From contig NW_026570572.1 in assembly GCF_019649055.1 (NCBI RefSeq), positions 1 to 39,583 on the forward strand: a stretch of DNA of 39,583 bases, written 5' to 3'. This stretch comes from Paramacrobiotus metropolitanus (lineage: Eukaryota; Tardigrada; Eutardigrada; Parachela; Macrobiotidae). This document shows, in pieces, positions 6,675 to 37,051 of the stretch. Made by a program: the position numbers and the translations under genes. Under the pieces are notes generated by a model. That model searched no databases and had not been told where the DNA came from. It was given only the letters and a program-made list of their open reading frames with translations. Within the stretch, counting starts at the first letter, position 1; every line of letters starts with the position of its first letter.

Positions 6675-6708
6675 AACCAACGGAAGAACCGGCCGAACAG
6701 GCTAGGGT

Positions 6709-10990: not shown

Positions 10991-11028
10991 TTTTCTGTTC
11001 TTCTAACTATGAAATAATGTTCTATTAA

Positions 11029-11042
11029 GAGAGAGAGAGAGA
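11029..11042. repeat. GA microsatellite
   Basis: A short pure GA run sits at the point where the GC-rich island is briefly interrupted by AT-rich sequence. Confidence 0.85.
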
Positions 11043-12472: not shown

Positions 12473-12635
12473 CCCCTGCTCCTTCTTCCGCCCTCCCTCC
12501 CCCCGGTGACTGGTGGGGGCAGGGATTTGGAACGTGACGGACACGCGCGAAATCCTTTAGCTTTGGAAGCCCGGTGCGGCTGACGGGCGGTGAGCGGCTG
12601 CCCGTCAACCGCAACCGTTAAGCCGCACCTTCACC

Positions 12636-12696
12636 CTGCCGGTGGAGAAGATCTTAGTATCTTAGTATCTTAGCTCGTCATCTTCTCCTCCGGCAG
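12636..12696. repeat. 17-bp inverted repeat around ATCTTAGT tandem repeats
   Basis: The arms at 12,636-12,652 and 12,680-12,696 are complementary with one mismatch. The loop contains three tandem copies of an 8-bp ATCTTAGT-type unit. It lies immediately downstream of a candidate minus-strand terminal exon. Confidence 0.6.
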
Positions 12697-12905
12697 TGCG
12701 GTGGTTTGTAACGGCGCCGTCGTGTAGGAGGTGCAGGCGGAGGAACTGCTGAAGGAGCGGCTGGACACGGAGCCGGTGAAGCATTTGCGCTCCAGCTGTT
12801 TCAGTTCCTCGATGACCCTGGTGGACAGACCGGTGAAAGCGAAACATTGCCCAGCGCTGGCATCGGCAGGTCCGAGGCTAGCTGGTGCAGCGAAGCGCGG
12901 TGCGC
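12670..12905 (-). CDS. Candidate 3' terminal exon of an unknown host gene
   Basis: On the minus strand a pyrimidine-rich tract ending in TTACAG precedes 12,905. The frame then stays open for about 78 codons to a TAA at 12,672-12,670. It has a helical, charged core (RVIEELKQLERKCF) with flanking Ala/Ser-rich sequence. The combination of a good acceptor, a coherent frame and a sensible amphipathic helix suggests a real terminal exon. I do not recognise the protein and see no upstream exon. The plus strand is also open here but gives a less protein-like reading. Confidence 0.3.
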
Positions 12906-13250
12906 CTGTAATTTCAAGAAAGGTCAGGTAATGTCAGGTTACAACTTGAAACTTGCGGTTAGTATAATTTATTCTAAAAAATAAAGGGTTCTTCTATAGC
13001 AGCCAATCTCCTTCATATTTGCTTCCCAGTTCGCCCATTTTATTTTTTCATCGTTTCGGTATTGCATAGACGTAGCCCAAAAACATTGAATAAATTTGGA
13101 AAGGTGGCGCAAGTTCAATCACTAACTCAAATTCAAGTTACGGACTTGATCTAAATTTCAGTTGTAGTCTGAACTTGTGCATTCCTGATTTTGCGAACGC
13201 GTCAATACTAGTACTGATGACGGCCAAGCTACTTGTGTTTCGAAAATTGA

Positions 13251-13352
13251 TATTTGTCTGTTGAAATCCGTGTTTTTTTTTCGGGTTTCCCATAAATACA
13301 GCAATGTATTTACGGGAAACCGGGGAAAAAATTAAAAATTTCAACAGATAAA
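13251..13352. repeat. 102-bp near-perfect foldback (MITE remnant or small-RNA hairpin)
   Basis: Arms of roughly 48 bp pair across a GCAA loop (13,301-13,304). The inner 17 bp (GGTTTCCC, TAAATACA) pair with one mismatch, and the outer TGTTGAAAT and its complement also pair. T-rich and A-rich tracts lie between. The size and shape fit either a small MITE or a precursor of small RNA. Confidence 0.65.
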
Positions 13353-15880
13353 GCCTAAGAAATTCGATTGTATTTTAAAAACTAAATGCATAAAATAAAA
13401 CTCTCTCTTCTCCCGACATCCCCTTTGAGGCAAAAACCGATGAGGAGTAAAATAACAGCGACGAAATGTATTTATGATTTCTTGCAGGCCGAATTAACCT
13501 TTTATCTGGATTTCCTAGAGTAAGTCGTACGATAAAGAATTCCTCATGACAGCTAAACTTTAGGAAGGAATTCGAGAATTACTAACGTTAAATGGCACTA
13601 AATTCTTAACTAGAAAAATGCACGCTCCGAAATTATCCCCCTTTTCACGGCTTCTGTGGCAACCGGCACCGGTTTGCGTTCTGCAAAATTCCCAACCATT
13701 ATTTTACCACATCAAAATTCACCATCACATCACAAAATAAAATCCTGTAAATAACAAAAAAACAAATCTTGGCTTTAGTGAAACGATCGACCCTCGAACC
13801 AGACACATCCGTCAACAGCAAAAACAATATTTCTAACCCTCACCAATCGCGCGTGCGGTCGATCTTTTCAATTGGAAATGAACGAACAAATCACCGCGAT
13901 GTAATTAGCATTTATTTTTTTACAATTAAATGCAAGACATTCCGTAAAATGATCTGGCAATAAAACTCCACCGGAAGCGTCAAAATAAAAGCAAAATAAT
14001 TTTATATATCCGTAAAGCTTTCATTTAATGAGGCCCAGTTTTCAAAGTTCGTATCTGCATTTGTCCTGTCGCATTCCAACTTTCAAGCACCGATTGTACT
14101 CAGTTTCTTACTGCTAAGGACATCCTGCAAAGCAGTTGACTACCAGCGCGGAACTGCGCCGTTGAAAAGCATTCGCACGATGGAAAAAGCGGCAAGCAAA
14201 CCAGTAAACGTTATACGTAATTCGTCAGCAAAACTTAAGAATCAAATGCTCTGACAAAACATGGCTATTCAATCAATAACAACAACATAAGGAAAACTGG
14301 TACGTTAAACAAGAAAGCTGAAGAAGTTTCAGCGCCTAAGAAAAACCTAAAAAGATGTGGACAGTGTTTCGTGGCATTACACCAGATCGATTATGCAATC
14401 AAAGGTCAAACTGCTTACTGACCTCACTTCCATCAGCTATCTCAGCCTATCTGTACGTCATCATACAGTGTAAATTCACAATTTAAATTCACAATAAAAA
14501 TACTGAATGTTCCAGCTACCGCTTCCGCTTACCTTTCGCCAACGCTCCGAATCTGCTTCTTCCGTCTCCACGAGTTAATGTCATCGTGAGCGGTCAGCAC
14601 GACTAAAGGAACAAAAAAAAACCCGAAAGCGATTTGTGTCGGACTTCGAACTATCGGCAATCGAACGTCGTGCACACCTTCGAAGGCAAATTATTAACAA
14701 ACGCAGCCGCCCGTGGAAGCGAAAAACTTCAAACTGGCTGAACGACTGCGTTGGGAAGCAGTTTAGAGCAATGACAGTTCTACTGGGGATGCAGAACGCA
14801 TTTGAGCTCTCCACAAATGCAGATAGAAGACTGCAGTTTCCTGTGTGAGCGTGACTGCGTCAAATCCGCGCTCAAGCCGGCAGACCACAAACTGCTTGAT
14901 GACACCGCAGTACCGCATCACTCTGTCCCTTGGCAACGTAACTCATATGCGTGGTGTGCAACACGGCTCGAGGCTCGAACACATGCGATTTTACACGACT
15001 CGCTTAAGCAGTAAATTACGTAAATGTTGCTGTTTAGCGTAAACCTAATAAATAAGCAAGTACGCACCTATTAAACCATTCAGCGCAGTGCAAACTGTTG
15101 ATGAAATTCGTACAAACAATTAATTAACTACCTTGGAGCCGGTTTCCTGCTCATCACTGTCATTTCCATCTACAAGCACAATAACTGATTAGTAAAGTGC
15201 TGTATTCATAAACACGACTACAATTATAGCAACTTTTTCATTCTTGCAATAGTGAAGAGCTTAAGCAAAAATAACAGTACTTGTACTTAAGTAATGCGTC
15301 AATTAAGCTGTGTCTGATATGTGCTCAAGCAGCAACGGCAGGCGCAGCGGAACTTCCGTTTTCAGTGCCTCAGAAGTTTACAATCCATTCCGAAATTACA
15401 GCGAAGCTAGAATCTGCCAGATGCAATAGACGCTGTAGTTAGTCATGCTAAAGGGATAATTTAACGTGCTAACATATTTATGCGCTAGGTTGATGCATAC
15501 GGCTACCTCGTGCGGGTGGCAGGGTATATCTGCATAATTTTTTAAAATTCGAAATGCATTCACTGAAAAAGCATGTATTCATTCGGGTAGATTCGGCTGT
15601 CTGGCGCTTCCGCTCCACACTGTTCGGAGCGTAGAAGAGACGTAGACAACCATTCCGCGCATTTCCGCGTGCTTCCCATTGGAAACGGTATTTTTGCTAC
15701 TGTGCAGTCTGTATGCCTTTAAATTGCCTTGTAAGTTCACGAAATAAACACTGCTGCTCACGCAGCCGCGCGCTATAGTCTAGAGAAGGTGCTAGTGCAG
15801 CTTTGCAAATATTTTATGCAGTTATATAGCGAAAAGGTTTCTAACACACGCGAAAAGGTTTCTTTCTAACACACACGGAA
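13353..15880. other. AT-rich stretch, no gene seen
   Basis: The open frames are short, uncorrelated with composition and overlap between strands. I found no domain, RNA gene or element end. Reading this stretch gave nothing I can support. Confidence 0.6.
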
Positions 15881-15909
15881 ACATGAAAGTAGAAGCAACG
15901 TTCTCATAC

Positions 15910-16177
15910 CTGAACCTGAGCTGCCATCCCTACCACCACCGCCGGATGAACCACCGCCCGCGTTACTTCCGCCACCTGCATTGCCGGCTCCACCACTCAC
16001 ACTGCCACAACACGCAGCCCCGCTGCCCGAAGTACCTGCACCACGACCGTCCGCGCCGCTTCCACCGCCATTGTGCCGCCACTTGCGTCGCGTTCGCCAT
16101 TGCCTGGGATCATCGAGCCCCAGTTCGGAGCATCCATCGGCTTGTTCGTAATAAACCGGCCGACAAGTATTGGAATA
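15910..16177 (-). CDS. Candidate Gly/Ser-rich internal exon of an unknown host gene
   Basis: On the minus strand TTGTTTTTACAG ends at 16,178 and a GTATGAG donor begins at 15,909, bounding 268 bp. The last two thirds encode an almost pure Gly/Ser/Ala low-complexity peptide that is open to the donor. The first third reads better in a second frame (motif NKPMDAPNWG), so a single-base break near 16,080 may be present. The plus strand gives a His-rich frame that I take to be the complement artefact of Gly codons. No family can be named. Confidence 0.3.
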
Positions 16178-16289
16178 CTGTAAAAACAACTTTTGGAACT
16201 GCCAGCTTTAATTCAATGGTGTTGTGCCAAAATCATCCTAAGATGCTCAGTCAAGCTGTTAATATCTGCCGATATATAGCGGGCCTTTA

Positions 16290-17290
16290 GTCTTGAGAAT
16301 CATCACATGGAAGTTCTGAGTCTAAAACGGCATCACTAAATGCACATGTATGAATCGCGCGAATCCCTCGTTGAAACTATTCCGGATACTTGAACACGGA
16401 CAGTGTTTCTATGGCATAGAATCTATGCCGATATTAAGCAGACATAAACACAGACATTCTGCAAGAGTCACTCATGCAAAATTAATGTCTTTAAAATAAC
16501 TGCGAGAAGTTTCGAACTACGCACTCTGTAGATTGCACCGTGTCCTCCACTTCGCCTCATGGGAATGTGAAGCAAATGACCCAGATAATTCAAGAAGGAT
16601 ACTCGTAATAGGATAATGCGATAAATGCAATAAAAAGCTGACCAGGAGAATAATTCGAAGCTGCCCCAGATAATAATTGATAATTCGGAGTTATGCATAA
16701 ACATAACAATGTAATGTAACAAAACAGTAATAAAAATTCTAAAATCCAAAAGGAATAATCGACTCCGGTGCACTGCACGCTGCAGTACATCGGAAAACTA
16801 TGAAACACAAAGTTTGGCATACTGCGGCATTTGCGCTGCTTATGTCGGCAAAGTTGATCGAGAAAAAAACTAACATTTAACAACAATCTTCCAATTTCTG
16901 TAAGCCGAGGAGCTCGATCTCGAATTCTAAATTTGAAAAAATACAATAAACCAGCCACATTCTCTTTTTTTAACGCAGTATGCGTTTTATTAACCGTACA
17001 GGCCTACGGCGTATGACTGTATCATAAGAACAGTGTGAAAACTCGCATAATATTATATGCTTTACTACCAGAAACTTTGGTTGCTATGCACGTGTTTCAC
17101 TTCCGTTTCCGAAGCGAAGCCATGATTCGATCGGCCCAATATTATGTATAAATTTTCACATAGAAATTTTTCAAACTGATATTCATATAGTCAGACTGTT
17201 TTCGCTTTAGCAGCTTTTCCGATAGCCATGTTCAATTATACCAGTATGAGTTTCTACGGATTATTTTAGTTATTAATTCCGTGTAGTGGT
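16290..17290. other. AT-rich stretch, no gene seen
   Basis: Only short overlapping frames are present. The minus-strand frames are hydrophobic because of T-rich codons. No supportable feature was found. Confidence 0.6.
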
Positions 17291-17299
17291 TGTTCCAGA

Positions 17300-18780
17300 G
17301 TTTCAATGTTAGCAAGACGATTTCAAAAATTACCATCCATGCGCTGAATCTAACGAACTGTTTTACCCTTTCCCCGCCTTCCACCGTTTGTTCGACGTTG
17401 CCGTCGATTTGTCAGATAAATCCTTCTTTACCAAACTCATTCTGCATGCCCTGGCCGGCAGCACCCCTGTCGTTGCGTACAGTATTTTATTAACCTTCCA
17501 AATCGAGGGTATCTCCGCTCACGAGGGCGCGGAAAATCATAGTGTCACGTTTCATATGATTGTTGTGGACGATACGGATCCGTAGAGCTACATTGTTATC
17601 GGATCCGTGGAGTAGCTGCTGGTGCTGGTGTTCTTTCGGGGCACGACTGACCCATGTGGGATTCGTGCTGTCGACCCGGCTGGCGCGGGCGCGAATGGAT
17701 GCTGCGAAGCGTGAATACGAGACGTGACAATGACGCACCGTGGGCATCTTGGGGACAAAATTGACGTTCAGTTATGGCCAGTTTGAACACCGGTTCGCCT
17801 TTCGCGTTGCGGATGAGAGGGTAGCGCCGTCGGATAAGTACGATTCGTTAGGCTTTACGATCTTCTTCTCTTTAAAAAACATAATTTTCAAGCAAGTGCA
17901 ACCTGCTAGAAAGCCATGATGTTTCCACAAACCATGTGAATTCTAAAAAAGCTTTATTGGTTAAAATCCTTCATCTTTACATTTTCAACAAAATCATCGG
18001 TTTGCAAGGTCGTATGTATGGTACACAAACCCATTGGCGCATTTCTGTTATTTCTTTGCGAGAGAATGCATAACCTGAGTCAAGAAAATGCTCATCCAAA
18101 ATGTTAAAATGTTTGCACGTTTGCTCTGGCCAGGTTTGCTCTCGGATGCAGGAATACGGAATCGTACTGCGGTTTGTGGCGCTTCCGCCGTCCACCGATT
18201 TGGCCATTTGGCTGTTGACCCGGCTGGCGCGGGCGCGAATGGATCCTGTGAAGCGTGGTTATGAGGTACATCTTGCTGATGTAGTCGGCGTTCAGTTATG
18301 GCCAGCTTGGACACGGATTCTTCTTTCAGATTGACTACGAGCGGATGGGGCTGTCGGATGAGTACGCCTTCGCGGTAAGTGCGCATTCGTTACGCTTGAC
18401 GCGCTTCTTTCTTCTGAAAAGCATCATTGTCAAGCTAGTACAACATGCCTGTTAGAAACTTCTAGTAGAAAGTCATGATGTTCCCACAAAACCATATGAA
18501 TTACGAAAACATTTTATGGTTTAAATACTTGACCTTTGCATTTTCATCAGAATCATCGGTTTGCATGGTTTTGTAAACTCATTAGCGCATTTCTGTTAAC
18601 TCCTTGCGAGAAAATGCATAACACGGTTGAAGCAAACGCTCTTACAAAATGTTAATATGTTTGCAGGTTTACTCTGCCCAGAGATCGCATGCAGGAAGGC
18701 AGAAACGTACTGCGGTTCGTGGTGGTTCCGCCAACCGATGATTTGGCCCCTGTCACGGACTGCGTCAATGTCGAGCATCC
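17300..18780 (+). repeat. Tandem array of about 550-bp units containing decayed exon sequence
   Basis: Three imperfect copies are present. The segment LARARMD + KR-YE is encoded at 17,680 and 18,223 (offset 543). The segment RMQE..VLRFV with PP-DLA is encoded at 18,144 and 18,687 (offset 543). The intron-like sequence CATGATGTT-CCACAAA recurs at 17,912 and 18,471 (offset 559). The middle copy ends with a good GTAAGTG donor near 18,375, after the reading FQIDYERMGLSDEYAF. Each copy has different stops or frame breaks, so the array looks like duplicated and decaying exons of an unidentified gene. Confidence 0.5.
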
Positions 18781-19216
18781 AGCATGCGGGCGTCTAGCTC
18801 GACTTCCGATCACAACGAAGAGGAGGTATCATTCGCAATTAAGAAAAATAATAATGAAGTTAATAGTTCTTGCAGTGGAGCAGTAGCCGCTCTAAGCTTC
18901 ATACAGCGGAAATACAGCACACAGTGTGGATATATCAACATGGAAAAGCGATAATGCAGAAACATTAGATCTGAGATATTGTAGAAAGTAATAACATCAG
19001 AAAGCATGAAATGATGCGTTAAAGCAGACTACCCTCATATCGTTTGCGACGTTGCGACGGCTGTGTACCCTGGTTATATTTTAGTTTGGAGCGACAGCCG
19101 CAGTGTCGAAAGACTTCTACGCTGACAAGATCATGCACGAACTGGATTCCATGAAATGCGCCACCCGGCAAATGATGTTGATGCGAAAACAGTTTTGCAA
19201 GGTTGTTGCACGGCAT

Positions 19217-19490
19217 GGTATACCCGAGTAAAACAGTTTGTAAAAAATACGTTAGCTTAACGTTAGTTAAAGGCCAAAATTCGAACAGTGTTCGAATACA
19301 AACTAATAATATTCGAATAGTATAAACTAATAATGTTCGAATAGTATTCGAACAGTGTTAATAATGTGTTTGTAAAAAATACGTTAGCTTAACGTTAGTT
19401 AAAGGCCAAAATTCGAACAGTGTTCGAATTTTGGCCTTTAACTAACGTTAAGCTAACGTATTTTTTACAAACTGTTTTACTCGGGATACC
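19217..19490. mobile_element. MITE-like palindromic element, 274 bp
   Basis: The ends are inverted: GGTATACCCGAG on the left, and CTCGGGATACC on the right (one base shorter). The terminal 80 bp on the left (19,217-19,296) match both a second direct copy starting near 19,368 and, inverted, the right end. The section 19,368-19,472 is a virtually perfect palindrome of about 52-bp arms centred on the AACAGTGTT at 19,416-19,424. The middle contains several TTCGAA/ATTCGAA units. A target duplication cannot be fixed; ATA on both sides is one possibility if the element begins at CCCGAG. Confidence 0.7.
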
Positions 19491-20640
19491 TAATGATTGC
19501 TCTGAGCAGCATGCAGCTGCGTGGTGCACCTAAACTTTAGTAGGCTACTTCTATTCTGTCACTTATTTTTAGGGAACCCGGCTCGTAGTTGTTCGAACAA
19601 AGTGCCGCACGTGTTTGTGATAATTATTGCCGCACATGTAGCGCAGAAAAAAAAGATTTTCTGGGTGAAGACTTTCGCATGATGAGAGTGTGCATCATTT
19701 AAATGAGTCATTTATCATCATCATCATCATCATGAGAGTGTGCATCATCATTTGTCTTGCCATTTAAATTTTGACCAGTTGTTGTGAAGCTCGAGAATTG
19801 CGTCGGGAATGGATGACGTCCGAAATTGGTTAATTTATTAGTTTTTAATCGGAATCTCATTCATATTTTTGAGTCGAATGCACAGAAATATCATCGTTTG
19901 GCAGTGTGATTTAGTGGAGGAAGAACAGATTATTTCAGTCATTCGCAATTTAAAATTGTTCCTTAAAATTATACTTGACTCATTACATACCCGAATGTAA
20001 AGAAATTTAATATCTACGTTCTGCTTCCTATTTTGCAGTCATAAACTGCCTTGCATATGTATCTACTATCTCCATGTAATAATATATGTATTAGTTGTTA
20101 TTTTTTCAAGTAATGTAGCGCTGTATGTATGGCTAGCGGTTGGGAATGGTCACCACGTTTTATTAGTTCGTTTATTTGTTCCAGTTATACGAATATGTTC
20201 TTTTTATGGTCGTCTTGTTCTGAAGGAAACTTAAGAAAAAAACGATTTGAGCTGTGTGATGTTGCTCAAAAAATCTGTTTTCGTTTCTCAGTGAAAGTAA
20301 ATTTACACGATGAAGTGAGCATTATGTGTACCCCGCCACTGAACCCGATATTCGAGGAAGTTTCGCCCAAAAAATAAACGCAAAGCGCTAAATTGCCGTA
20401 ATCTTTATTCAGTTCAACGGCACGAAAACGTTCGCAAACCACAGCATAAATACGACAAAATTTCAGATGAAAAAAACGGATGTGGTACTGTGGCATTCAC
20501 TGAATGGAGGTTTTAACATTTTTCCCGTTAGCAAGCTTGATAATTTTCGTCACATCGTTCAATAATTGTTTTAAGTATCTCGTTTTAAGTTACGTTATGA
20601 GCGGTTTTAACAGCTCTACTTATAAATGGTGAGCAGCGTG
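19491..20640. other. AT-rich stretch with small ATC microsatellite, no gene seen
   Basis: The sequence ATGAGAGTGTGCATCAT is directly repeated at 19,682 and 19,732, with an ATC run of about 19 bp between. The short frames are not convincing. Confidence 0.6.
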
Positions 20641-22745: not shown

Positions 22746-22751
22746 ATTGGC
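22746..22751. repeat. Left 6-bp target-site duplication, ATTGGC
   Basis: ATTGGC directly precedes the left terminal inverted repeat and is repeated exactly after the right one (37,046-37,051). A 6-bp duplication is the hallmark of Polinton integration. Confidence 0.9.
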
Positions 22752-22875
22752 AGAAGAAACAGTATATTGTATGAACATAAAATGGCGTCGGTTACGTCAT
22801 AAACTGGAGTTGGGAGCTGCACTTTCCAGCTGCAATTCCCGGTTGGACTTTATGACTACAGAACTCCCAACATCA
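22752..22875 (+). repeat. Left terminal inverted repeat of the Polinton
   Basis: The repeat pairs with 36,925-37,045. About 86 of the first 95 bases match, and similarity then fades. It starts with AG, as Polinton ends do. Part of it (AGTTGGGAGCTG ... GAACTCCCAAC) can fold on itself. Confidence 0.9.
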
Positions 22876-23286: not shown

Positions 23287-23716
23287 GTAAGTAAGTTTAA
23301 ATCGTTTGTTAATTTCCGCCGACGAAACTTCCAGCTTGCGCTTATTGCGTGTTATGTTGAACGGATAATTCACGGTAATTCCACTTGGCTGGTCCGGTGG
23401 TGCCAGGCTTTCCAGTAGCATCTCTTTCAGGCTTTCCAGGTTTAGCTGTTTTTCGCTTGCCGTGTCAACGTAAATCCCTTGACTTTTATCGTTTCACATC
23501 CAGTATTTGTCCGGTAAGCATAGCTTTTGGTCCTGGGACAACAAAGAATTAACATTTTAAGTTGCTCGCATATTATTATCTAGATAATTATTCTTTTACC
23601 AAGCGCTACAAATTCGTCAATGTACTCGTCAGGCTGTAAAGACGAGGACAAATCACCCAAGCACGTTCCCGTTGGTGGATCGGGCAAATCGTCTCTATGG
23701 ATGTAGAAAATGCTGT

Positions 23717-23773
23717 CTGCAAAATAAAGAAGTGGATGAGCAATTTGCCGATAATACTGTTTCGCGCGTTCAC
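23717..23773 (-). other. Intron 5 of the polymerase gene (57 nt), splitting motif C
   Basis: The donor GTGAAC and acceptor TTTGCAG lie inside the catalytic motif: DT lies upstream and DS downstream. The intron has no stop in its frame, so an unspliced reading gives a false long ORF with the sequence FADSIFY. Confidence 0.85.
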
Positions 23774-25804
23774 CTGTATCGTGGTATAACAAACGGTCTC
23801 CAACCATTTCCATGAATTTTAATAAGTGTAGCCGTGCGTACGCAGTCGTAAAAGCTGCGATAACAACATTGGTCTTTTTGCTCGTCGCAATGTAGTCCTT
23901 CTTGGAGCGGTATTGAACTGCCATAACTTCATCGGTGACCAAATCGAACCCGGCGACTTCGTACTTGTTAGAAAACAAGTAATCATGGAATACCTCTTTC
24001 TTTTCCACCATATCCGTGTTGGATCGGTCTTCCTGTTGACCAAATTTTCCCTGCAATGAGCGTAAAAATAATGAACATGCACAAATTAAATAAGTTCACA
24101 TGTGTACCAAAAACTATTTAGCATAAGCTTGCAAAGAGCTCTCAAAGCGTCGTTTTTCGCAATATTCTTTTATCCAGTAGAATATTTTCTTTAGCAAGGA
24201 ATTCTTGAATATATCTGTCTTTTTCATCTTCCGTTTGACACTGTGGTGGATATCCAGAAGCTTCCGTTTTCAGCTTCAAAAACAGGTCAATGTATTCTCT
24301 GAATAAATACTGCATTTGTTCTGGATAGTGCCAAGCCGAGTATATTTTATCGATACGATAGCCAACTTCTAATGCTCGATGAATTTCTGGAGTGCACCAA
24401 GTTCCTTCCAGAGCCCTGTCCTCATCATCGTGAGAACATGGTTCGTTTACGCGTTCCGTCACGCATTTAGCGCATAAAGGAAAAGTCAGTTTATCAGTTT
24501 TGTAAGGTAGCACCGGTAAAAACAACGACGGTGGAGGAATGACGCGACATTTAATTATTCCAAAATACTCTCCACAGGCGGAAAATCTTTAGTAATGATA
24601 ACAGGCGGTCCCACCGGATAAGGTAGATTTTGTTAATATAAGGGTATTCGCTGATAACGTCGAGCGAATAGATTTTTTCTCCAGGATCGCACTTGTGGTA
24701 CAACTTGATAGCGTTTGTCCTGCCACCAGTAAATGCGTCTCGGGGTGCATAGGTTCTTCAATACCGGTCAACTGAATTATTTTCTGAAATTCCAGGTCAG
24801 TAGTGAGCCGGCTATCATAGTCGTGTTCCCAGATCGAAACTACGGAATAGCCCATAGTTTTGATAGCTTCAAGGCGTAAGGCAGTTGCTTTGTTAACTTC
24901 CTCCATTGGCCGTTTCAGAAAGGGATGCAGCGTGCTTTTTGTTGTGCATTCGCTGCAGCCGTGCCACATACATCCTGCACAAACACATTGAAGGTGAATT
25001 GCGTTTTGAATGTGATCGATAACATTTATATCGAGCTGACTAACCTAAAAACTCGTAAGCGGTTTTTGTATCCCGATCAAAACCATCCACAGTCCAGTGA
25101 CCGATTCGATGCTCTTTTTGCAATTTTACATCATTTTCCATTTCAATCCAGCGTAGCCAACGCTCTCCTTTGACAGATGACTTTTTGCCCTGACCAGGAG
25201 GGCCGATCAACGCAATTTGGTTTTCCTTCAGCATTCGCGCTCTCCAAAAGTAATTGCACATGCCGGGTGTGGTTAGTCCAGACCCAAATGGGCATAATCC
25301 ATCGGTTACCTGTTGGAAAAGCGCTCGAAATTTTTCGCACGCTTGTTGCAAAATGAGGACATCTTGTGAGCAATACCTAAAACGAATCGGATAAGTTCGA
25401 TTCTGTAAATAGCATAAGGGTTTAGCTTACTTGATAAAGTGTGCATTAAAGTCGAATTTGTTCCTGTGACGGCGTCGCTCTTTGCGGTACCATTTCATGA
25501 AGCGCTTTCGTTCTTTCTTTTTCATAGACTGATAGCCATAGTCATGACGATCGGGCCAGGCAGTTATTTTATTCCAGTTTTCAGGCTTATTAAGTTTGTG
25601 TGGGAAATCTCCTTTGGTTTCTTGCAAACCAAATGCTTTCGCAAAATTTTTTAACGATGATGGTACATAGTTCATAGAGTCACGAAATTTTATTTTGAGT
25701 TTGGGCACGTCCATCTGCATAACCTTGCTCCCGTTGAAAATAAGCGGACGTGGAATAATGCCGTTTTTCACGAGATAATTCAAAATGAAGTATCCATCAA
25801 ATCC

Positions 25805-25866
25805 CTGAAAAATAAATTATCAATTTATTTAATAAAGAAGTTACTTAACGTGTTGACTTTCGCTAC
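25805..25866 (-). other. Intron 1 of the polymerase gene (62 nt)
   Basis: The GTAGCG donor and TTTTTCAG acceptor join AHNLK to GFDGYF, restoring the canonical exonuclease II context in frame. Confidence 0.85.
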
Positions 25867-27659
25867 CTTCAAATTGTGCGCCATAAATGTGTAGCCACGG
25901 AAACGCTCACTGAAAATGAAATCGCCAAGTTCTTGTGAAATGTCGCCGTTAATATTACCGTTTTCTGGAAGAATAAATTTTTTATTTTTTGTCGCGATCA
26001 CCGCTAGGTTGACTTTAAATTCTCCACTCTCGTCTTGATATGTTTCCAGGTCAAAGTATGCCAGCTTGTCGTTATGGTGCTTGGCCTTTTCTTTATCCGT
26101 AAATTCCACGGGTTTCATATAACACACATGGTTTTCCTCCGGCATATAGAATAACGAGCAAGTCGCACAAAAAACCTCACCACATCGATGTTGCTGATCG
26201 TCAACATCTAGTTCAATTTCCTTAGCAATATCGTGGTCCTGGTCATTGTCCTCACCATGAATTGTATCGTAATTGGTCTTCATACGGCGATTTACCATGG
26301 AGACAAAGGTTTTACACTCACGGCAAATGAAAAAATTTGCGCAGATGGTGCTGCTCCCAGCTTGGTGTCTGTCAAAACAATCTTGCCCATAGAAATCGCG
26401 GTTACAGTCCAGACAGTGTATGGTTTCTTGCTTATTCATTTTGCAAGTTGCAGACAAACACTGGTGGCACTTGAACTCGCAGCGGTGATACTGTCTTTGA
26501 TCGTAGCCTTTCATGCAACGGTAACAGTAATAGTGGTGCTCAAAATAGGCCGGTAAAGATGTTAAAACATCAAAATGTTGATCGTGATGCAGCAGCATAA
26601 TTCGCTTTTCGCAGTAGGCGCCGCAGTAGACGATAGAATTTCCATGATCCACAGATACCACAATAAACTGATAATTCGGTAAAACTTCTTCAAAGCGGGG
26701 AATATCTTGCACGTTGAATTCTCTGTTTGGCAGGTTGGCAGTCAACAATAATTCTTTTGTCTTCTGGTCTTGCAACTTTATGGTTCGGTAAAGCTTTGTG
26801 TACAGCTCTTTGTCGCCATCTGCATGCGCTTGTGCCACAACTATAGCCCTGGCCATACACAAACAGTCCGTATTTCGAATCTGGGTAATACATCTTTTGT
26901 TGTCTAAAATCCGCTGCAACAATTTTGATACATTTTTTCTGCATGATCCGGATGGCAAATCAGTGTGCTGGACTGACAGTTCAAATGATTCGTCTAGCAG
27001 AAAAGCCTGATTAGAGTTTAGAATCCGCCTTATTGTCGTCATCCACCGTTCAATTGTTATTTGGTCCCGCCGAATAGGTGGCATCCAAATTGGATACTGC
27101 AGAGCATTTTGATACATGCGGATTCGCACCAGGTTATGCGCTGGAATCGCAGCAATCACACTCTCCAGAATATCTTTCAAAACGAGTGTTATCGTTTTAA
27201 CAGCATACTTGAACGATAGATTATCCAGCCCCGTCACTGTACATTTGTAAGTTTCGAACGAAACTGAAAATTTCTGGGAATATTTTGCTCCGATATTTTC
27301 GAGCACATAATAATCTTTAATGTCATTCAAGTCTGGATCGACTTCGTCAGCTATATTCAAAGCTGGCAGATCAGCTCGTGGTACAGTATAATTATGATCA
27401 AGAAGAGCATAATCATGATTGAAAAGTGCGGTATCAGCAAACTGTGGGTTACTAGTACAGGCGTTAGAGTTGCCCTGTACACGATCAGGTACTTGCGTCA
27501 TCGTAAAGACGAGCTCTGGCAACGTGATTTTACTAGTCTCAAAGATGCACCCAAGATACTCAGATTATATATGAACAAATTCCGCTACAGCATTTTTGTT
27601 ATCATCTAAATGTCCAAGCAGATCGCTCAATGATTCATGCGCTAAAAATGTCAGGCGTG

Positions 27660-28592: not shown

Positions 28593-29131
28593 TTATTGCA
28601 TTATTTGACGGAAAGCAGACTGAATTATCATAGAGCGATCACGTATTACAGTGTTCAAATCAAAATAATGATTAATATAAGCACAAACCATTCGATCATT
28701 CGACGATTTGCTATTGGTGAACAAATGAATAAGAGAGGTAAATGACTCGCCGGAGCATCGTTTTAGAATAAAAAAGCAGCAGTACTGTCCGCACACGGTA
28801 CTCCATTCCATTTGTAAACGATGCGCTTGCGAAATAACTAACTCGGCGTTCTTGCAAAACTTTCAATATGGATGCCGTAAAATCTCGGTTCGTGACCATA
28901 AGAGTCAAAATATTCCAATTTTCCCAGGACGTCCTGGTAGAACGCCAACCAATGCGAGCCTGGCTTTGCAGCTTCGTCAGTATTGACAACGCATGCCCAT
29001 GGCAGCTTCATTGGCAGGGACGGTGGTAACATGTCCGCAGCAAATACACCAATAAAAGCATCTTTCGTCACGGTACTTGAACGTAGCACGTGGTCGATTT
29101 CAGCAGTGTCCATTTTAGTGCCGATCTGCAT
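28593..29131 (-). pseudogene. Adenain-like cysteine protease (Ulp1 clan, virion maturation), frame-broken
   Basis: The family cleaves virion precursors during maturation. The first frame (29,131-28,838) contains GSHWLAFY with the catalytic His and YFDSYG with the catalytic Asp. The last frame (28,811-28,593) contains STVCGQYCCFF with the catalytic Cys, followed by NDRMV. A middle frame (around 28,900-28,850) bridges them. Breaks lie near 28,890 and 28,840. The overall span, about 180 codons, is normal for adenain-type proteases. The ATG at 29,113 (MDTAEIDHVL) is an equally plausible start. All three catalytic residues can be seen, so loss of function here would come from the frame breaks alone. 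Confidence 0.8.
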
Positions 29132-29353: not shown

Positions 29354-30702
29354 TTACGCTGTAAAATCCGCAATTAGCTGGCGATGTGAATTGACTTCAA
29401 TAATATTATCCCACACCATCATCGTAATGGCCATAATTGGTTCAGTTAGTTGGGCGGCGAACTGCAGGCGGATTGATAGATTTCCTTGGCGCACGGTGCT
29501 CATCGGTCCCCGGCCTGTCCGTGAAGGTGTCAGATCGAATCCCCAAATAGAAAATCCTTCCGCAAATGCTTTACGGTCGAAAGGCAGCGCCCCGTCCGGT
29601 GCGTGCAAGCGGCCGAGCGTCTCCAACAGACCGTCATATGATTGCAAATAATCACCCGTGGCGAAATTTGGTCGGTAGGCTTGTGCGGGATACGACTGTC
29701 CGTCGACTTCGACACTTATATAGTTGAGATTGAAATGTTCAAAGTTAAACGGATTACCTCGGCGCAGCCCGTGAAAACTCGAGCTTTTACAAATCCCACA
29801 AAACACATTTGGGTACTGCTCCAATATGTAAATTAGCCAGCACTGTGCTCTGAATCATACCAATATCATTAACACGCATACACACTCGCTCAATAGGGTA
29901 TTTCACAGTCTTTGTCGATAATTGGGCAGTAAGCGCAGACAAATATGCCGGATTAGGCACAAAGCGTTTGACGTACAACCGCGGATTGCGAATGTATGCT
30001 TTAAAGGTATCCACTGGAAGATTGGCATATGAACGCAGGTAGAATTCCGGCTTATTCAAAATGAGGCGCACATGTAGCGGTACACCGGTGATCAAATTTT
30101 TCCCTGCTGAAAAATGTCCGTACATAATTTGGCGCTGAACGGGACGTACTCGTTGGTCACAAACATAGCTTTTCGCGTTACTTCTCCAGCGTTATTGGCA
30201 TGATCTTCTAGGTACCCGGGAGTGTCTATATAAAATCCAGCACTTGTTGCCTGGCTTTTAGGGCAGCCGGTGTGTACCCCAACAAATTTTCCAAGTACGC
30301 TCGGTAGGCATATAATGGGGTGGAATTAGTTATCAGGCGGTTGGCCATTGTTACCTCTACCGAGCTGAATATAGAATGCGCAATCAAGTTCACTGGTGCT
30401 ACCAGATCCGTGTTTTCAATATGCGTAGCCGCACCAAGTCCTGCAATTTGCTTTTTGATTGCAATATCCATTTCTAGCGTAATTTCCGGTAGCACTAGCA
30501 GCGCCGACGTTGAAGGGGGAATGTAAAAGGAAATTTCTCCAGAACTAATTTCTTCTGTTTGCCCTGATGTTGGTAGAATGCGTTCTTCTTCTGTCCGCAC
30601 AAAATCCGCTAGAGTGGCCGGAACGGAGAATAAATCCGACTCGACCTGCATAGCTGGCACGCTTCCTTCCAAAATAAAAGCCATTTTAAAATGCGTCCTC
30701 AA
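29354..30702 (-). pseudogene. mcp: Polinton major capsid protein (double jelly-roll), frame-broken
   Basis: The protein would form the pseudo-hexameric capsomers. Three frames follow one another: 30,702-30,226, 30,125-29,787 (open upstream to about 30,230) and 29,824-29,354. Landmarks are FYIPPSTSAL, VNLIAHSIFSSVEV and YAYRAYLENLLGY in the first, then FYIDTPGYLE and VRLILNKPEFYL with VKRFVPNP in the second, and NPFNFEHFNL, FDLTPS and GNLSIRLQFA in the third. These are characteristic of the animal Polinton capsid, also annotated as F54H12.2-like. Total length is about 450 codons, normal for the family. Breaks lie near 30,230 and 29,805, each explained by one base. The start could be the second Met of the ORF (MAFILEG). 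Confidence 0.88.
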
Positions 30703-30730
30703 ATTCTCTTGGGGAATCCGTTTAAGCCGT

Positions 30731-31149
30731 TTAAGTCGGAAGGAAGGTTTCTTTATCTTTTGTCCTCTTGTGCTGCTGCTTGAGCCGTTTGATGCCTCCT
30801 TGCTGTTGAGGTTGCGCAGTTAACGCTTCCGAAATTTTCTCTCCTACCTTCTTGGATGTTTCACTTAAAACTGTTGTCGCTGCGTCGCGTAAGTGGGGCT
30901 TTGCTGCTTCCATTGCTGCTCTGGCATGTGGTGCCGCTGCTTTAATAACCGGGGCAGCAAAATGCGCTAATTTACTAACATTGCGCGCAGGAAATTAGGT
31001 AGCATAAATCCGCTGCCATTTTGCATTAAACTCCCGCGATAGCGTGTCATGACGGCTCCATAGCCGTGCTGGCTACTAGCGCCCGTGGCGGCCCCCGCAA
31101 ATAAATCCAGATAGAACGATGGTGACGGCTCAAAGAGGATTACGGGCAT
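30731..31149 (-). pseudogene. Small basic Gly/Ala-rich virion protein (pVI/pX-like position), frame-broken
   Basis: Two frames (31,149-30,967 and from about 30,970 to 30,731) together give about 140 codons. The N-terminus is hydrophobic and Gly-rich (SQHGYGAVMTRYRG, MLPNFLR), followed by Ala-rich helices and a basic Gln/Lys tail (IKRLKQQHKRTKDK). Adintovirus and Polinton elements usually have such a protein between the two capsid genes, compared by some with adenovirus core or cement proteins. That comparison rests on position and composition, not on a motif. The gene abuts the penton gene (stop 31,152, start 31,149), in keeping with its place in a capsid cassette. Confidence 0.55.
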
Positions 31150-31151: not shown

Positions 31152-32090
31152 TTAGCGATAGTAATACTGAATGGGGCGGAAATGCAGCTTTACCATTGAC
31201 TTTCCAGTCTGAAAAATTGCCGCTTCTCCGAGATCAGTTGCAATGTTGATATCAATAGTGTCCAGTCGATCGTATAAAACAGGTAAATAATGTGGATCCT
31301 CAAACCTTTCGGAAACAATTTCGAAGCGAGGAACACTTGCTTTAATGGGGAAAGCGCGCAAAAGCTGCATAGTTTCATCGCCCACAATATTGTAGTCGCA
31401 CTTGTTGCAGTAGACAAAAATTGACTGGTTCCCAATGTGCATATTTACGGGCTTATCTGCTGTCATTGTTATAGACGTCTCCAACAGTTGCAACTCTGCC
31501 AGGGCTTTCAGCTGGTCGGACAGTGTTGTAGCTGCGGAAGCAAAATTCGTTTTTCCATTAAAAATTTTCATATTGTTCAGACTGTGCAGCAGAAAATCGT
31601 CGTTCTTTAAATCCAAGCATACGGGATAGATGCAAAGATGAGGAGGAAAATCCAGAAAAACACGTACGCTGGAAAATTTCACTTTGAGCTTGGGCTCGGT
31701 TGCAAATAATTCTAGTTGGAAAGCCGCCTGTTCTTTCGCTGAAGAATCGCGAAATGGCTTTAACCGTGGTACTTTACTGTTGATAAAATTAATGATGTCA
31801 CTTTTCTCATAGATCCCTGCAGGTACCGTAATTGTGTCCCTCTCCATAGCGAAAACACCGTTGCTATCCATAGAAGTAATTTGGTCAACGTGCAACGTTT
31901 GGGGACTGGGTAAATTGTACATTGAATTAGGATACTGTATTTCCACCAATGCCATTTCCCATTGTCCCGGTAGCGATATCACGCTCTTTAACTTTGTGGT
32001 CCATTCAGCTGCATTATTTTTTGGGAACTGTTGCATACAGGCATCAGATGGAAGCGTGACATAAAAGCTATTATGAGCCATTTCTGACAC
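31152..32090 (-). CDS. Polinton minor capsid (penton) protein, intact
   Basis: The 312-residue ORF is uninterrupted. Its N-terminus (FYVTLPSDACMQQFPKN, then LPGQWEMALVEIQYP) is the hallmark of the Polinton/adintovirus penton protein, a single jelly-roll that closes the capsid vertices. Length is within the family's range. Its ATG lies inside the last 20 bp of the integrase gene, and its stop is 2 bp before the next start, so it is part of a tightly packed minus-strand series. It is one of only two genes of this element with no frame break, the other being the TBP-like gene. Confidence 0.88.
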   Translation of the reverse strand: MSEMAHNSFYVTLPSDACMQQFPKNNAAEWTTKLKSVISLPGQWEMALVEIQYPNSMYNLPSPQTLHVDQITSMDSNGVFAMERDTITVPAGIYEKSDIINFINSKVPRLKPFRDSSAKEQAAFQLELFATEPKLKVKFSSVRVFLDFPPHLCIYPVCLDLKNDDFLLHSLNNMKIFNGKTNFASAATTLSDQLKALAELQLLETSITMTADKPVNMHIGNQSIFVYCNKCDYNIVGDETMQLLRAFPIKASVPRFEIVSERFEDPHYLPVLYDRLDTIDINIATDLGEAAIFQTGKSMVKLHFRPIQYYYR

Positions 32091-33038
32091 GACTGAGTTC
32101 GGCTTCGTAATATTTCCCGCGAATTAAGTCCCCGTCTTCATCCAGTAATACGTAGAGGGGCTCGGGCTGTTGTGGTAATACTTGGTGTATCTTGTAAATT
32201 TCCTCCTTAAATGTTGACTCATATCCTTTTTCAAAAGTGTTTTGTCGATGGCTACTCGTACTGTGTCACCTACGCTGTACTTTGGCTTTTCTGCTTTCCC
32301 AATAATAATTCTGCATATAGTCGATTGAATATTTGCAGAGAATTGGACTGGCTAACCTCATTAGGCGTGACTTTATGCGAAGAATGAATTGCGTTGTTGT
32401 AACTGTTTACCAAATCTCCCAGAACGTCCCAGTACACTTTAGACTGTCGGTGTCGAAATAATTTCCATATTCGTTTCTTGAGATTGCGTATGCCATTTTC
32501 AGCTAAGGATGCTTTGATTGCTTTATTTTCAGAAGAGAACAAAAAACCTTTTGGGCTGTCAAAAACTCTTAACGTCCTTATTGTAAAATTCAAGACCTTT
32601 GTCCGTTTGCAATTTAATGGGAGCTCCGAGTTCTGCAAACACCTTTTCCAACCCAAGTTTTACTTCTAGACCGCTTTTATTCTTTAGTAGTTGACAGCTC
32701 ACTTTCTTGCTGAAGACGTCGATCACAAACAATATCCAACGGTATCCTTTGTTCTGCTTCGCATATTTTGACATGTCTGCCAGATCGGCTTGATATTGCT
32801 CCGCTAGGTTTGAGACAACTACGGGGTTTCTTTTGAACCTTTTGCGTCGAGATTTGTGGACTGTATATGGATCCAGATGCTCCAGCTGTTCCCGCGTTTG
32901 TTGATAGTTTGGTGCTTGTGGAAAGTGGCTGCGAAACTTTTGAATCCCTGTTAAGCTGCCCGGGTGCTGAGGGTTCAGATACGCTTGTCGTAGCAGTAGA
33001 TTGGCCATCGTATTCGTCGTCGCTACTGCTTGATCCAT
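32071..33038 (-). pseudogene. Retroviral-type (DDE) integrase of the Polinton, frame-broken
   Basis: The enzyme inserts the element and makes the 6-bp target duplication seen here. The N-terminal segment has LNPQHPGSLTG and DPYTVHKSRRKRF. The catalytic core follows with Asp at about residue 85 (QADLADM), FVIDVFSK, and Asp at about residue 146 (LQTDKGLEFYN). The Glu motif (KASLAEN, then LKKRIWKLF) is in the second frame. The C-terminal part has YSVGDTVRV and LDEDGDLIRGKYYEAEL, resembling the chromo/SH3-like tail. Breaks lie near 32,600, 32,285 and 32,225, all explained by single bases. The stop at 32,073-32,071 overlaps the penton start. Confidence 0.88.
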
Positions 33039-33112
33039 CGCAACAGCTAGATGTGCAGTTCCATGTCATACCTTCACCCAAAGACAAAGAAAAGGAACGC
33101 ATCCACCACCAC

Positions 33113-33605
33113 TCATTTGTTATTAATAGTCATCCAGTTGAACTGGGATTTGGTTCTTGAACCGATGGGACCTTCGATTTGTAAAGTGTTTTCATCAAAT
33201 ACTTCTCGCTTTGCACGCTTGCGTTTTGCCGGGGTGCAGGTGGAATAGGAGGAAAGCATCTAACATACGATCAGGCATATTAGGGGTACCCACGGCTTCT
33301 TTAATAGTTGTACTGGAATGGGGGCACAGATGCTGGAGGCGGAATAACCATTTGGTCAGGGCCGAACGCCGACTCTTTCAGCGCCAAAAGCGAGCCAAGT
33401 TTCTTGATAACAGTTCCGCTTTCTCCCATTCGCTTAGCGTATTCCGTGAAATTATATCTCTCATCAAATCGTCCAGTTTTACAATATCCACAACTGCAGT
33501 AGGCTGCTGTTGTAATTGGACATCCGTTACAATACGACCAACCGTGTCACTTGTAAGTCTTTTCATTTCGCTCGCGGGAACAATATAATGCACTTCCGGT
33601 TTCAT
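33113..33605 (-). pseudogene. Conserved Polinton protein of unknown function (basic tail), frame-broken
   Basis: The frame starts at 33,605 with MKPEVHYIVPASEMKRL, overlapping the previous gene's stop as ATGA. It has a helical section (IVKLDDLMRDIIS, WEKAELLSRNLARF), then Pro-rich sequence and a basic KRKRAKRE segment before the stop at 33,115-33,113. Breaks lie near 33,378 and 33,250. The arrangement of a helical N-terminus, Pro-rich linker and KRK tail recurs in arthropod Polintons beside the ATPase, as far as I remember. No function is known to me. Confidence 0.5.
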
Positions 33606-33930
33606 TTCAGTAAGGCAGTTCCCAAAACAGCTGCCAATACAGGTAGAACCGCAGGTAAGAATCCTCCGCGCTGTAATAAAATTTCCCTCTTGCTTCGTAA
33701 AGGATATTTTTTGAGGGCAATCAGCTTTAATGGTCGACGCCAACGCTGACACACCTTTAGCTGATCGGTGGTAAGAGGCACTGAATTCTTTACCAAATTC
33801 AAACAAATTTCTTCAAAACAGCGAAGTTGTCGTTTCGAAATATTTTCCAAAGAAAACGACGCTGCTTGGGTTTCAGCGATCGCAGGGTAAGGAGAAACGG
33901 TGCAAAGTCTTTTAAAATCTGATCACACAT
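33602..33930 (-). pseudogene. Conserved Polinton small protein with QRGGFLP motif, frame-broken
   Basis: The first frame from 33,930 is a leucine-rich helix (FLLTLRSLKPKQRR). After a break near 33,840 the second frame continues with NLVKNSVPLTTDQLK, a basic region, and ILLQRGGFLPAVLPVLAAVL, a hydrophobic C-terminus. The LLQ-GGFLP-LLP type of ending is typical of a small protein encoded next to the ATPase in arthropod Polintons. Its role is unknown to me; membrane or capsid association would fit. Its ATG is within the end of the ATPase gene, and its stop overlaps the next ATG. Confidence 0.5.
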
Positions 33931-34569
33931 TCTTGGGCAAGGTTGTCGTATGTGGATTAACGTAAATTTTAGTCAACTCTCCCGGTAATATTGCTGAACG
34001 AATCCTTAAATAGGCAGGTGTGTCCGGTTTCATATCCAGAATGAGAGGTTGAAATGGTTCCTGGCCGACTTCCTCGTAAGCTCCGCTGAGATGTTTTAAA
34101 CCAGTCTGCCTTTCTAGAATCTTGATTTGGTTCACATCACGATTATTTTTGAACAGTATAAGATATTGTGCATTAAGATGCACGTCTCGCATAGCAGACC
34201 CTTGTTTATATAGGTTATTGAATAATAGAAATACACAAAGCCGTTTATGGTGTACTTTTTGAGTGAAGAGTTTAGCCAAATGCTCATTTTCACCAAACCA
34301 CTTGCCACGTCATCCAGTATCAACAAAATATTTTGTTTACCATCAAAATAATTTTCATCCTCCACAATTTGTTGAATTTGTTGAATATTTTTGTCAGTAC
34401 ACCAAAATAATTCGTCCAAATGGTTGGTCAAATAATTTATCGCGCTCCATAATTAATTTTGACACATATGTCGTTTTCCCGAAGTCGTTGGCCCCACAAC
34501 AAGGACTGAAGCGGGTAGTCGGAATCTCAAATCAGCTGTCGTGCGCGGATACCTATTTAAGGAATCCAT
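33923..34569 (-). pseudogene. Genome-packaging ATPase (FtsK/HerA, A32-like), frame-broken
   Basis: The ATPase would pump DNA into capsids. It starts at the ATG at 34,569. Walker A is VVGPTTSGKT at about residues 24-33. Walker B (NILLILDD) is in a second frame (34,431-34,132). The third frame, from 34,279, holds KLFTQKVHHK and LLFNNLYKQG, the typical sensor region, then RDVHLNAQYLILFKNNRD. Breaks lie near 34,395 and 34,285. Total length is about 215 codons, normal for Polinton ATPases. The 5' end is divergent to the plus-strand KGxEK copy B, with about 40 bp between the ATGs, implying a shared bidirectional promoter. Confidence 0.85.
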
Positions 34570-34609: not shown

Positions 34610-35065
34610 ATGGAGACTTCAAAGCGGAGGTTGTCTTAGATATTGATTGGTTTATCGCTGGCTCCCAACGGCTTATAAAACAGCTGGCATTTTGTGATTG
34701 CCCAACTAGTGTTAGCAGGTGCTACACATTCACCATTCCATCCCACTTTAATCGTTACCGCGTTGAATTTAGGAGCCAATCGCGTCACTCACACGGACTT
34801 GTCTGGCATAATCGTGGAGATTATTTATACTTGGACATCGCCAGGGCGATTCAGGATATGCTGGAGCTTATTGGTGAACGACCTGCGCGTTTGACGTTTT
34901 TTGCCAAAGTTGGAAAAGCAAAAGATTTTGGAAAATTATTTGCCTGAAGTGTTTAATCTTGAAGACATTGGGTGCCCGAAGTTTAAGGAGCTTACTTCAT
35001 TACCACAAACAACGCTTTCAAAAGCGGAGACATTTGCAAATTGGCTGAATGGCGAAAATAACTAA
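34610..35065 (+). pseudogene. KGxEK-family protein, copy B (function unknown), frame-broken
   Basis: The reading from about 34,618 contains VVLDIDWF, IKQLAF, then CYTFTIPSHFNRY and YLDIARAIQDMLEL. After a break near 34,905 it continues with EKQKILENYLPEVFNLED, IGCPKFKEL and ETFANWLNG, ending at TAA 35,063-35,065. Motif order and spacing parallel the minus-strand copy A (DIKWY, ELAI, FYAKGSEK, NLDSLGCPRF, NWML). The ATG at 34,610 is not in phase with the main frame, so either a break lies near 34,615 or the start differs. The stop overlaps the TBP-like start by 17 bp. Two divergent copies of one family in one element suggest subfunctions, but no activity can be assigned. Confidence 0.55.
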
Positions 35066-35576
35066 CGTTGTTGCAACTGCTGACCTTGGCTGCGCAATTG
35101 ACTTACCCAGCTTATCCGAACGCGCTCCGCTTGCTCATTATGCACCACATAAGTTTTCCGGGCTTCTTCTCCGTTCCATTCGTCCTTACAAATCGCACTG
35201 CCAAGTGTACCGCAACGGCAAGATCACAGTTAATGGTGCAAAGTCCATCAGTGATGCTCTCGCGTTATTGGATCACTATTACCGGAAACTGCAAAAATAC
35301 GGCTATCAAAAAGCATCGTTAAAGAATCCAAGAATTGTTAACATTGTCGCCACTTTCAATTTTGGGAAATTTCTTAGTTTAGAGAAATTATACAACTCAA
35401 TAAGAGCAAAAGCTGATGCCATGTTTGAACCTGAAATATTTCCGGCCATGCGAGTCCGGCTTCAAGGTTGTACGGCGATGATTTTCCATTCTGGAAAAAT
35501 TAATTTATTAGGTGCAAAAGATGCTGATACTCTTCATACTGCTGAAAACGAATTGCGCCTGTTATTAGGAACCTAA
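35049..35576 (+). CDS. TATA-binding protein (TBP)-like protein encoded by the Polinton
   Basis: The intact 175-residue ORF is the size of the TBP core and has both direct repeats. Repeat 1 has NVVATADLGCAIDL, HKFSGLLLR and NGKITVNGAKS. Repeat 2 has NIVATFNFGK, FEPEIFPAM and MIFHSGKINLLGAK. The two Asn that contact the TATA centre are present (N6, N98). Of the four DNA-intercalating Phe, three are kept (F36, F131, F146) and the fourth is Tyr (Y54). FEPEIFP matches the YEPELFP helix region used to contact TFIIB. There is no N-terminal extension. The gene overlaps KGxEK copy B by 17 bp, lies inside the TSD-bounded element, and is followed by AATAAA 11 nt after its stop. The likely role is directing transcription of viral genes, which is inferred; TBP homologues are known from some large DNA viruses. 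Confidence 0.85.
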   Translation: MAKITNVVATADLGCAIDLPSLSERAPLAHYAPHKFSGLLLRSIRPYKSHCQVYRNGKITVNGAKSISDALALLDHYYRKLQKYGYQKASLKNPRIVNIVATFNFGKFLSLEKLYNSIRAKADAMFEPEIFPAMRVRLQGCTAMIFHSGKINLLGAKDADTLHTAENELRLLLGT

Positions 35577-36924: not shown

Positions 36925-37045
36925 GCAGTTGGGAGCTGCAAGTACAAAGTACAACCGGGAATTGTAACTAGAAAGTCCAGCTCCCAACTCCAGTTTATGA
37001 CGTAACCGACGCCATCTTATGTTTATACAGTATACTGTTTCTTCT
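36925..37045 (-). repeat. Right terminal inverted repeat of the Polinton
   Basis: It is the inverted partner of 22,752-22,875, ending CTTCT. Inside, AGTTGGGAGCTGC and CAGCTCCCAACT can pair, so this end alone can form a hairpin. Confidence 0.9.
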
Positions 37046-37051
37046 ATTGGC
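37046..37051. repeat. Right 6-bp target-site duplication, ATTGGC
   Basis: An exact copy of 22,746-22,751, directly adjoining the terminal CT. Confidence 0.9.

Follow-up and report, generated by a model that had tools for sequence, protein, structure and literature searches.

To my knowledge, how Polintons express their genes is unstudied. DNA viruses that steer the polymerase of the host are known among the giant viruses, the mirusviruses and the herpesviruses. A 6-bp target site duplication is a trait of Polintons, and the element described here has one. According to the accessible parts of the sources, Polintons (Mavericks) have a family B polymerase, an rve integrase, an ATPase, a C5-type protease and terminal inverted repeats (PMC8097293), and a tardigrade repeat survey lists Maverick among its superfamilies (PMC11071193). 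The present element shares the integrase and the terminal repeats and has candidates for the other three genes. The first-pass annotation of this locus knew of no TATA-binding protein (TBP) in published Polinton gene lists, and none was found either in the limited part of the literature covered. Full-text literature searches, whose coverage leaves out most subscription papers, found no published TBP in a Polinton, and none is reported in the accessible parts of PMC10675990, PMC10132985, PMC12220804, PMC11071308, PMC11464507, PMC4602308, PMC12085832, PMC8097293 and PMC11071193. The terms of this search are absent from PMC10120064, PMC11071296 and PMC4642659.

I analyzed a stretch of 39,583 nucleotides (the window). 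A TBP gene was found to lie within a Polinton of 14,294 bp, whose terminal repeats match and which is flanked by a perfect 6-bp target duplication. An arthropod host had been presumed, but the host is the tardigrade Paramacrobiotus metropolitanus. The features of the element are as follows.

22746..22751, target site duplication ATTGGC, left (sequence)
22752..22871, left terminal inverted repeat (self-alignment)
23580..27564, minus strand, family B DNA polymerase gene in several broken frames (weak DNA_pol_B_2 match at 23580-24095, E 0.0019)
28838..29131, minus strand, piece of a cysteine protease gene (Peptidase_C5 below the family cut-off, E 0.0012)
29354..30819, minus strand, major capsid-like gene in broken frames (homologous to a 449-aa ORF of locus L041)
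31152..32123, minus strand, minor capsid-like gene, open (309 aa from its ATG, 31152-32081)
32270..33065, minus strand, integrase in broken frames (rve, E 3.4e-07)
33378..34452, minus strand, packaging ATPase in broken frames (its relative in L041 matches Pox_A32 weakly, E 0.0012)
34554..34560, plus strand, TATTTAA, 56 nt ahead of the start codon of the companion and possibly a promoter element for it and TBP
34610..35065, plus strand, companion gene, whose last 17 nt overlap the beginning of the TBP gene (broken frame here, open in other copies)
35049..35576, plus strand, Polinton-type TATA-binding protein gene, intact (175 aa and stop; ORF, Pfam, structure model)
36928..37045, right terminal inverted repeat (self-alignment)
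37046..37051, target site duplication ATTGGC, right (sequence)

The exact element ends noticed at first pass are real. The terminal repeats start at 22752 and 37045, align over 118-120 bp with the first 15 bases identical, and are flanked by ATTGGC on both sides. The polymerase, protease, capsid-like, minor-capsid-like, integrase and ATPase genes lie on the minus strand, and the companion followed by TBP on the plus strand. In the window copy, the polymerase, integrase, ATPase, protease and capsid-like frames are broken and shorter than in other copies. As noted at first pass, just two genes are intact: the TBP ORF and one further long open gene, the minor-capsid-like one. Only one of the three polymerase pieces in the window matches DNA_pol_B_2, and homologous pieces in L047 and L059 match it at E values of 5.3e-27 and 2e-13. 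The rve match in the window (30.9 bits) is just under the cut-off of 32.6, and that of the L041 integrase is over it (9.3e-13, 48.8 bits). Neither of the two ATPase pieces of the window has a Pfam match, and the Pox_A32 match of L041 is under the cut-off; the packaging ATPase label is partly my assumption from general knowledge. The capsid-like candidate ORFs have no Pfam match, and I take them to be major and minor capsid genes from gene position and general knowledge. No RNA polymerase candidate was seen in the element. Positions 1-20000 of the window have a GC content of 51-59% up to about 13 kb and 37-45% thereafter, with ORFs on both strands, some of which I take by their appearance to be retroelement (Gag-like) ORFs. 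A 75-bp inverted repeat, 99% complementary, lies at 19223-19485.

Two stretches of the ORF at 35049-35576 match Pfam TBP (PF00352; E 2.8e-37) with 126.9 bits, where the cut-off is 22.9, in line with the two repeats noticed at first pass. In a PDB sequence search at E <= 10, 34 of the 37 entries listed are named TBP or TFIID, some of them as fusions to other proteins; of the other three, two are unrelated (E about 1) and one carries only the name ECU04_1440 protein. The best match is a Sulfolobus TBP (E 5.8e-21), and the identity to solved TBPs is 27-33%. The residues pointed out at first pass were located by alignment: the Asn pair is N6 and N98, three of the four intercalating Phe are F36, F131 and F146, the fourth position is a Tyr (Y54), and the FEPEIFP region is present. 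The functions of these residues are assigned from yeast TBP on the assumption of general knowledge. An AlphaFold2 model of the 175-aa ORF, made from 36 aligned sequences, has the TBP saddle (mean pLDDT 96.9; TM about 0.91 to solved TBPs). A structure search with this model gave 44 PDB matches at E <= 0.001 with a TM of up to 0.92, and all 44 are, by title, TBP entries or transcription complexes with TBP. The identity of the protein by sequence and its predicted fold were thus demonstrated.

Is this gene common in the Polintons of the tardigrade? A search of the genome with the window protein revealed at least 150 TBP-like rows at no fewer than 147 places (best 150 of 295 candidates scored). 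In the other searches, the best 150 of 562 candidates for the integrase, 150 of 341 for the ATPase, 150 of 493 for Pfam TBP and 75 of 500 for the polymerase were scored, so that the counts are lower bounds and absences are uncertain. Among the 150 TBP-like rows listed, 132 have no internal stop and 113 are stop-free over at least 140 codons. An integrase or ATPase match lies within 12 kb of 129 of these rows, and 132 are near a polymerase (16 kb), integrase or ATPase match. For a place picked at random, the chance of having one of the 150 ATPase places nearby is about 2%, and that of having any place of the three lists nearby is at most about 6%. Seen from the marker genes, 57 of the 68 polymerase places listed (merged from 114 rows) have a TBP-like place within 15 kb, as do, nearby, 115 of the 150 ATPase places and 107 of the 147 integrase places listed (second hits at one place dropped from 150 rows). 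The gene is thus present in most of the related elements listed, and its membership in the elements was demonstrated for many copies. Among the matches listed, a TBP within reach is absent from 35 of 150 ATPase, 40 of 147 integrase and 11 of 68 polymerase places, suggesting that some elements may lack the TBP gene; other element types may be among the integrase matches. The Pfam TBP search added places missed by the protein search. Of 20 low-ranking or added loci, 19 have Polinton genes around TBP, and the exception, L055, is probably a relative of the host TBP.

In 18 of the 150 TBP-like rows listed, such as C134:307451, C25:756009 and C137:242692, none of the three marker genes is nearby among the matches listed. 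Some of these rows are open; they could represent solo or domesticated copies or belong to truncated elements. Has the host then taken over the gene for its own use, the element context being incidental? These marker-less rows, and the name 'TATA-box-binding protein-like' that NCBI gives to one copy, may be cited for such a domestication. However, most of the open copies listed are near element genes, and related proteins with the same signature exist outside this genome, so that I consider it very unlikely.

The TBP gene was found in elements of several layouts. In group A, to which the window belongs, the companion-TBP pair diverges from the ATPase gene, and group A' has an A-like layout in which the ATPase gene starts at a shorter distance. 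The genes of group B (L041) share one direction, in the order ATPase, integrase, minor-capsid-like, capsid-like, protease, companion and TBP, the last being broken in L041. Elements of groups C and D have TBP ahead of the ATPase gene on the same strand. Since the gene order differs among groups A-D and TBP is in all of them, TBP keeps company with the elements despite reordering.

Some loci have peculiar features. L042 and L043 (contig C13, about 230147-245076) form 4.4-kb inverted arms, 99.7% identical, each with TBP and ATPase genes; these arms are far longer than the terminal repeats of the window element. L046 (contig C140) has 2.06-kb inverted arms (99.4%). Beside the class C TBP gene of L042 on contig C13, a 428-aa ORF (L042:1448-2731, minus strand) has an ADP-ribosylglycohydrolase domain (E 4.8e-28) and a BIR domain (E 2.9e-14), a combination unfamiliar to me from Polintons. 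In the class D loci L048, L050-L053 and L056-L059, the TBP frames are 214-374 residues in length, at least 257 in seven of the nine. The class D frames with both repeats continue for about 30-190 residues past the TBP domain, possibly as a C-terminal extension.

The relationship with the host TBP, which is a separate gene at C4:406165-406662, was assessed with phylogenetic trees, as had been suggested at first pass. In a tree of 78 TBP sequences, including one TBP from each of 40 of the 68 loci, the host TBP joins yeast TBP (97.7/100), and a single clade (90.4/100) holds the cellular TBPs and L055, separate from the element proteins, although the deep branches are tentative because the tree has more parameters than sites. 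In a FastTree analysis of 157 sequences, the host TBP is likewise apart from the element TBPs. There, the Polinton-type TBPs form one clade with a support of only 0.55, A/B with P0046 is supported at 0.98 and C/D at 0.998, and L055 is placed elsewhere than in the 78-sequence tree. The C/D split from the rest is found in the ATPase and integrase trees (99 and 100%) as well as the TBP tree (100/100), while the joining of A, A' and B differs between the ATPase tree (made without 16 near copies of the window's group) and the integrase tree. The possibility that one element copy captured a host TBP gene by chance was rejected. Homology is all that speaks for it; the gene occurs at 147 or more places (150 or more rows) in several lineages, and the host TBP goes with yeast TBP apart from the element genes in the 78-sequence tree and is also separate from them in the FastTree analysis. 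I regard such a capture as barely conceivable.

Relatives were also found outside this genome. The metagenome proteins P0002-P0031 are 40-52% identical to the window TBP over at least 88% of its length, and at least 27 of these 30 are on the A/B side of the 78-sequence tree. P0008 falls in A/B in the FastTree analysis, P0024 and P0025 carry A/B residues, and P0034-P0036 group with C/D in the 78-sequence tree. P0008, P0031 and P0033 are on contigs of 19-22 kb. In IMG/VR, no homologues were found with TBP, companion, capsid or integrase queries, but these scans used few short patterns (two to six for each query) and say little.

The first-pass annotation left it between a recent gene and one under constraint. 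Over 136 pairs of 17 near copies, the mean dN/dS is 0.29 (mean dS 0.083, dN 0.024). These 17 copies were chosen for open frames: of the 23 rows at 69% identity or more, six that are broken, partial or second hits were left out. Among the minor alleles, 44 of 96 are synonymous, as compared with 0.24-0.28 expected without selection (p about 2e-4 or less); among the singletons, 24 of 60 are synonymous (p 0.004-0.035). Both the dN/dS and the synonymous shares support constraint over mere recency. Thus, constraint was demonstrated and is clear in the older history but weaker in the newest changes, as expected of copies decaying after insertion.

Which residues have changed? On the DNA face, the window TBP differs from cellular TBPs by L114Q, F116Y, V122T, T124N, V203T, V213N and T215L (yeast numbering). 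These positions presumably touch the minor groove, judging from TBP-DNA structures. I surveyed 72 Polinton-type sequences (57 A/B and 15 C/D, near copies included). L215 is found in 72/72, N124 in 71/72 and Q114 in 71/72; the A/B members further have Y116 (57/57), T122 (57/57) and N213 (56/57). T215, T124, L114, F116, V122 and V213 are the residues of the five cellular references, of which one is partial. Of 230 proteins matching a C/D profile, 120 were listed for comparison, five of which are themselves Polinton-type; T215 is found in 102, T124 in 98 and L114 in 106 of the 120. Q114 and L215 occur together only in P0042-P0046 among these 120 of 230, and P0042 is this tardigrade's own. The window TBP (P0001) lacks the Thr pair at yeast positions 124 and 215, having N and L instead; the pair is a common trait of cellular TBPs and does not define the fold. 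Replacements common to the DNA face of these TBPs were thus demonstrated. That the contact residues are changed yet nearly invariant argues for a changed recognition site, and such a DNA-reading surface suggests that the elements may use a promoter code of their own.

V203T and L205V are reportedly two of the three changes in a yeast altered-specificity TBP. T203 is found in 64 of the 72 Polinton-type sequences and V205 in 47 of the 57 A/B members, a combination which recalls that yeast protein and may serve as a lead. In the accessible part of the source, three second-repeat changes permit the yeast protein to use TGTAAA (PMC10005294). V203T alone is not special, T203 being present in 24 of the 120 other proteins listed.

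The Polinton-type TBPs retain the saddle, most of the intercalating aromatics and a large part of the stirrup that contacts TFIIB. On the TFIIB face, E188 is found in 70/72 and E186 in 39/72; E186 is replaced in 33 of the 57 A/B sequences, so that TFIIB binding may be weaker there. Could the element TBP compete with the host TBP, occupying TFIIB or host promoters and damping host transcription rather than driving element genes? The kept saddle and stirrup would suit such a competitor, as would the variable basic residues at positions that presumably face TFIIA/NC2 in cellular TBP. However, the DNA face is replaced, not degraded, and several of the new residues are nearly invariant over the 72 sequences, which suggests selection for specific DNA reading. 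I therefore judge competition to be unlikely.

It had been noted that the TBP gene overlaps another element gene. The overlap was confirmed: with its end at 35065, the companion frame reaches 17 nt into the TBP ORF; the companion itself is broken in the window copy and is open as a 152-aa frame in other copies (L006, P0041). Companion homologues precede the TBP gene in the window's group and the fetched group B loci except L028, and also in L030 and L040. Companion homologues were also found on metagenome contigs of 20,036 and 1,728 bases, and P0031 and P0017 are on contigs of equal size from the same source; thus, the companion-TBP pair probably stays together elsewhere. A structure model of the companion, built from nine sequences (pLDDT 87.1), bears a weak resemblance to DEDDh exonucleases such as RNase AS and REXO2 (E 4e-4 to 8e-4 and TM 0.47-0.60 for four matches). 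As this exonuclease-like companion overlaps TBP, the pair could work in DNA metabolism, and the element TBP might be a DNA-bending factor in replication, integration or packaging, for example at the terminal repeats. Such a factor would not need to keep the TFIIB-contacting stirrup with its E188, and I know of no cellular TBP with any of these roles. This explanation seems quite unlikely.

A role of the element TBP as a promoter-recognition factor fits the sequence evidence. The ORF is probably a regular gene of the Polinton lineages in this tardigrade, coding for a virus-type TBP. This TBP would recruit the RNA polymerase II of the host to promoters of the element that do not resemble the host TATA box. 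In this mechanism, the element TBP would bind and bend element promoter DNA differing from the host TATAAA box, and its kept second-repeat stirrup would bind host TFIIB. The TFIIB contact would then bring host RNA polymerase II to element genes, probably the late ones (capsid). On the model of the herpesvirus late-gene TBP mimic, the host TBP would read the early genes, the TBP gene among them, and the element TBP the late ones. More tentatively, the Polintons of this branch may possess their own promoter code. The TBP would have been gained before the A/B-C/D split and its minor-groove face rebuilt; it would read late promoters to which the host TBP is poorly suited, and the TATA boxes of early genes would be left to the host TBP. 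This would be a two-stage programme for a 14-kb element without its own RNA polymerase. I consider this possibility somewhat less likely than not.

I searched 37 upstream regions for promoter motifs, taking the first ATG of each frame as the start codon. No motif rose above shuffled sequences in these 37 regions, which counts against the proposed promoter role: the top 6-mer occurs in 8, and the shuffle maximum averages 9.2. TATAWA precedes three of six TBP genes and one of 31 other genes (Fisher p 0.0096), an excess of little weight because it is post hoc and two of the three are close relatives. TGTAAA is in 3 of the 37 regions and gains no support; the herpes-type TATTWAA is in 4 of the 37.

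A self-encoded TBP makes Polinton gene expression testable, because the protein is small and its predicted fold is very confident. About a hundred open natural TBP variants exist in one genome (at least 113 rows stop-free over 140 codons or more). The changed DNA-contact residues predict a changed recognition site, and the nearly invariant new residues are a natural experiment on rebuilding TBP specificity.

How does the element TBP compare with known systems? Like cellular and archaeal TBPs, it has a two-repeat saddle, three Phe and one Tyr as intercalating residues, both Asn and the EPE(L/I)F stirrup; unlike them, it is only 27-33% identical to solved TBPs, has a replaced DNA face and resides in a mobile element. 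KSHV ORF24, the herpesvirus late-gene TBP mimic, has little sequence similarity to TBP, whereas the element TBP is a clear TBP homologue by sequence. The proposed logic is alike, in that a TBP-like factor of the virus directs the RNA polymerase II of the host to viral promoters, as far as the accessible part of the source goes (PMC12529657). Giant viruses and mirusviruses also encode TBP homologues, according to the accessible parts of PMC10132985, PMC11464507 and PMC12085832, and some of the TBP-bearing ones carry their own RNA polymerase (PMC10132985, PMC11464507, likewise in part). However, these viruses are far larger than the element, and viral TBPs in BFVD are more distant, the best being 22% identical among the 50 matches listed. 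Among the ways in which DNA viruses redirect the host polymerase, the present locus would be a further case, in an element of just 14 kb.
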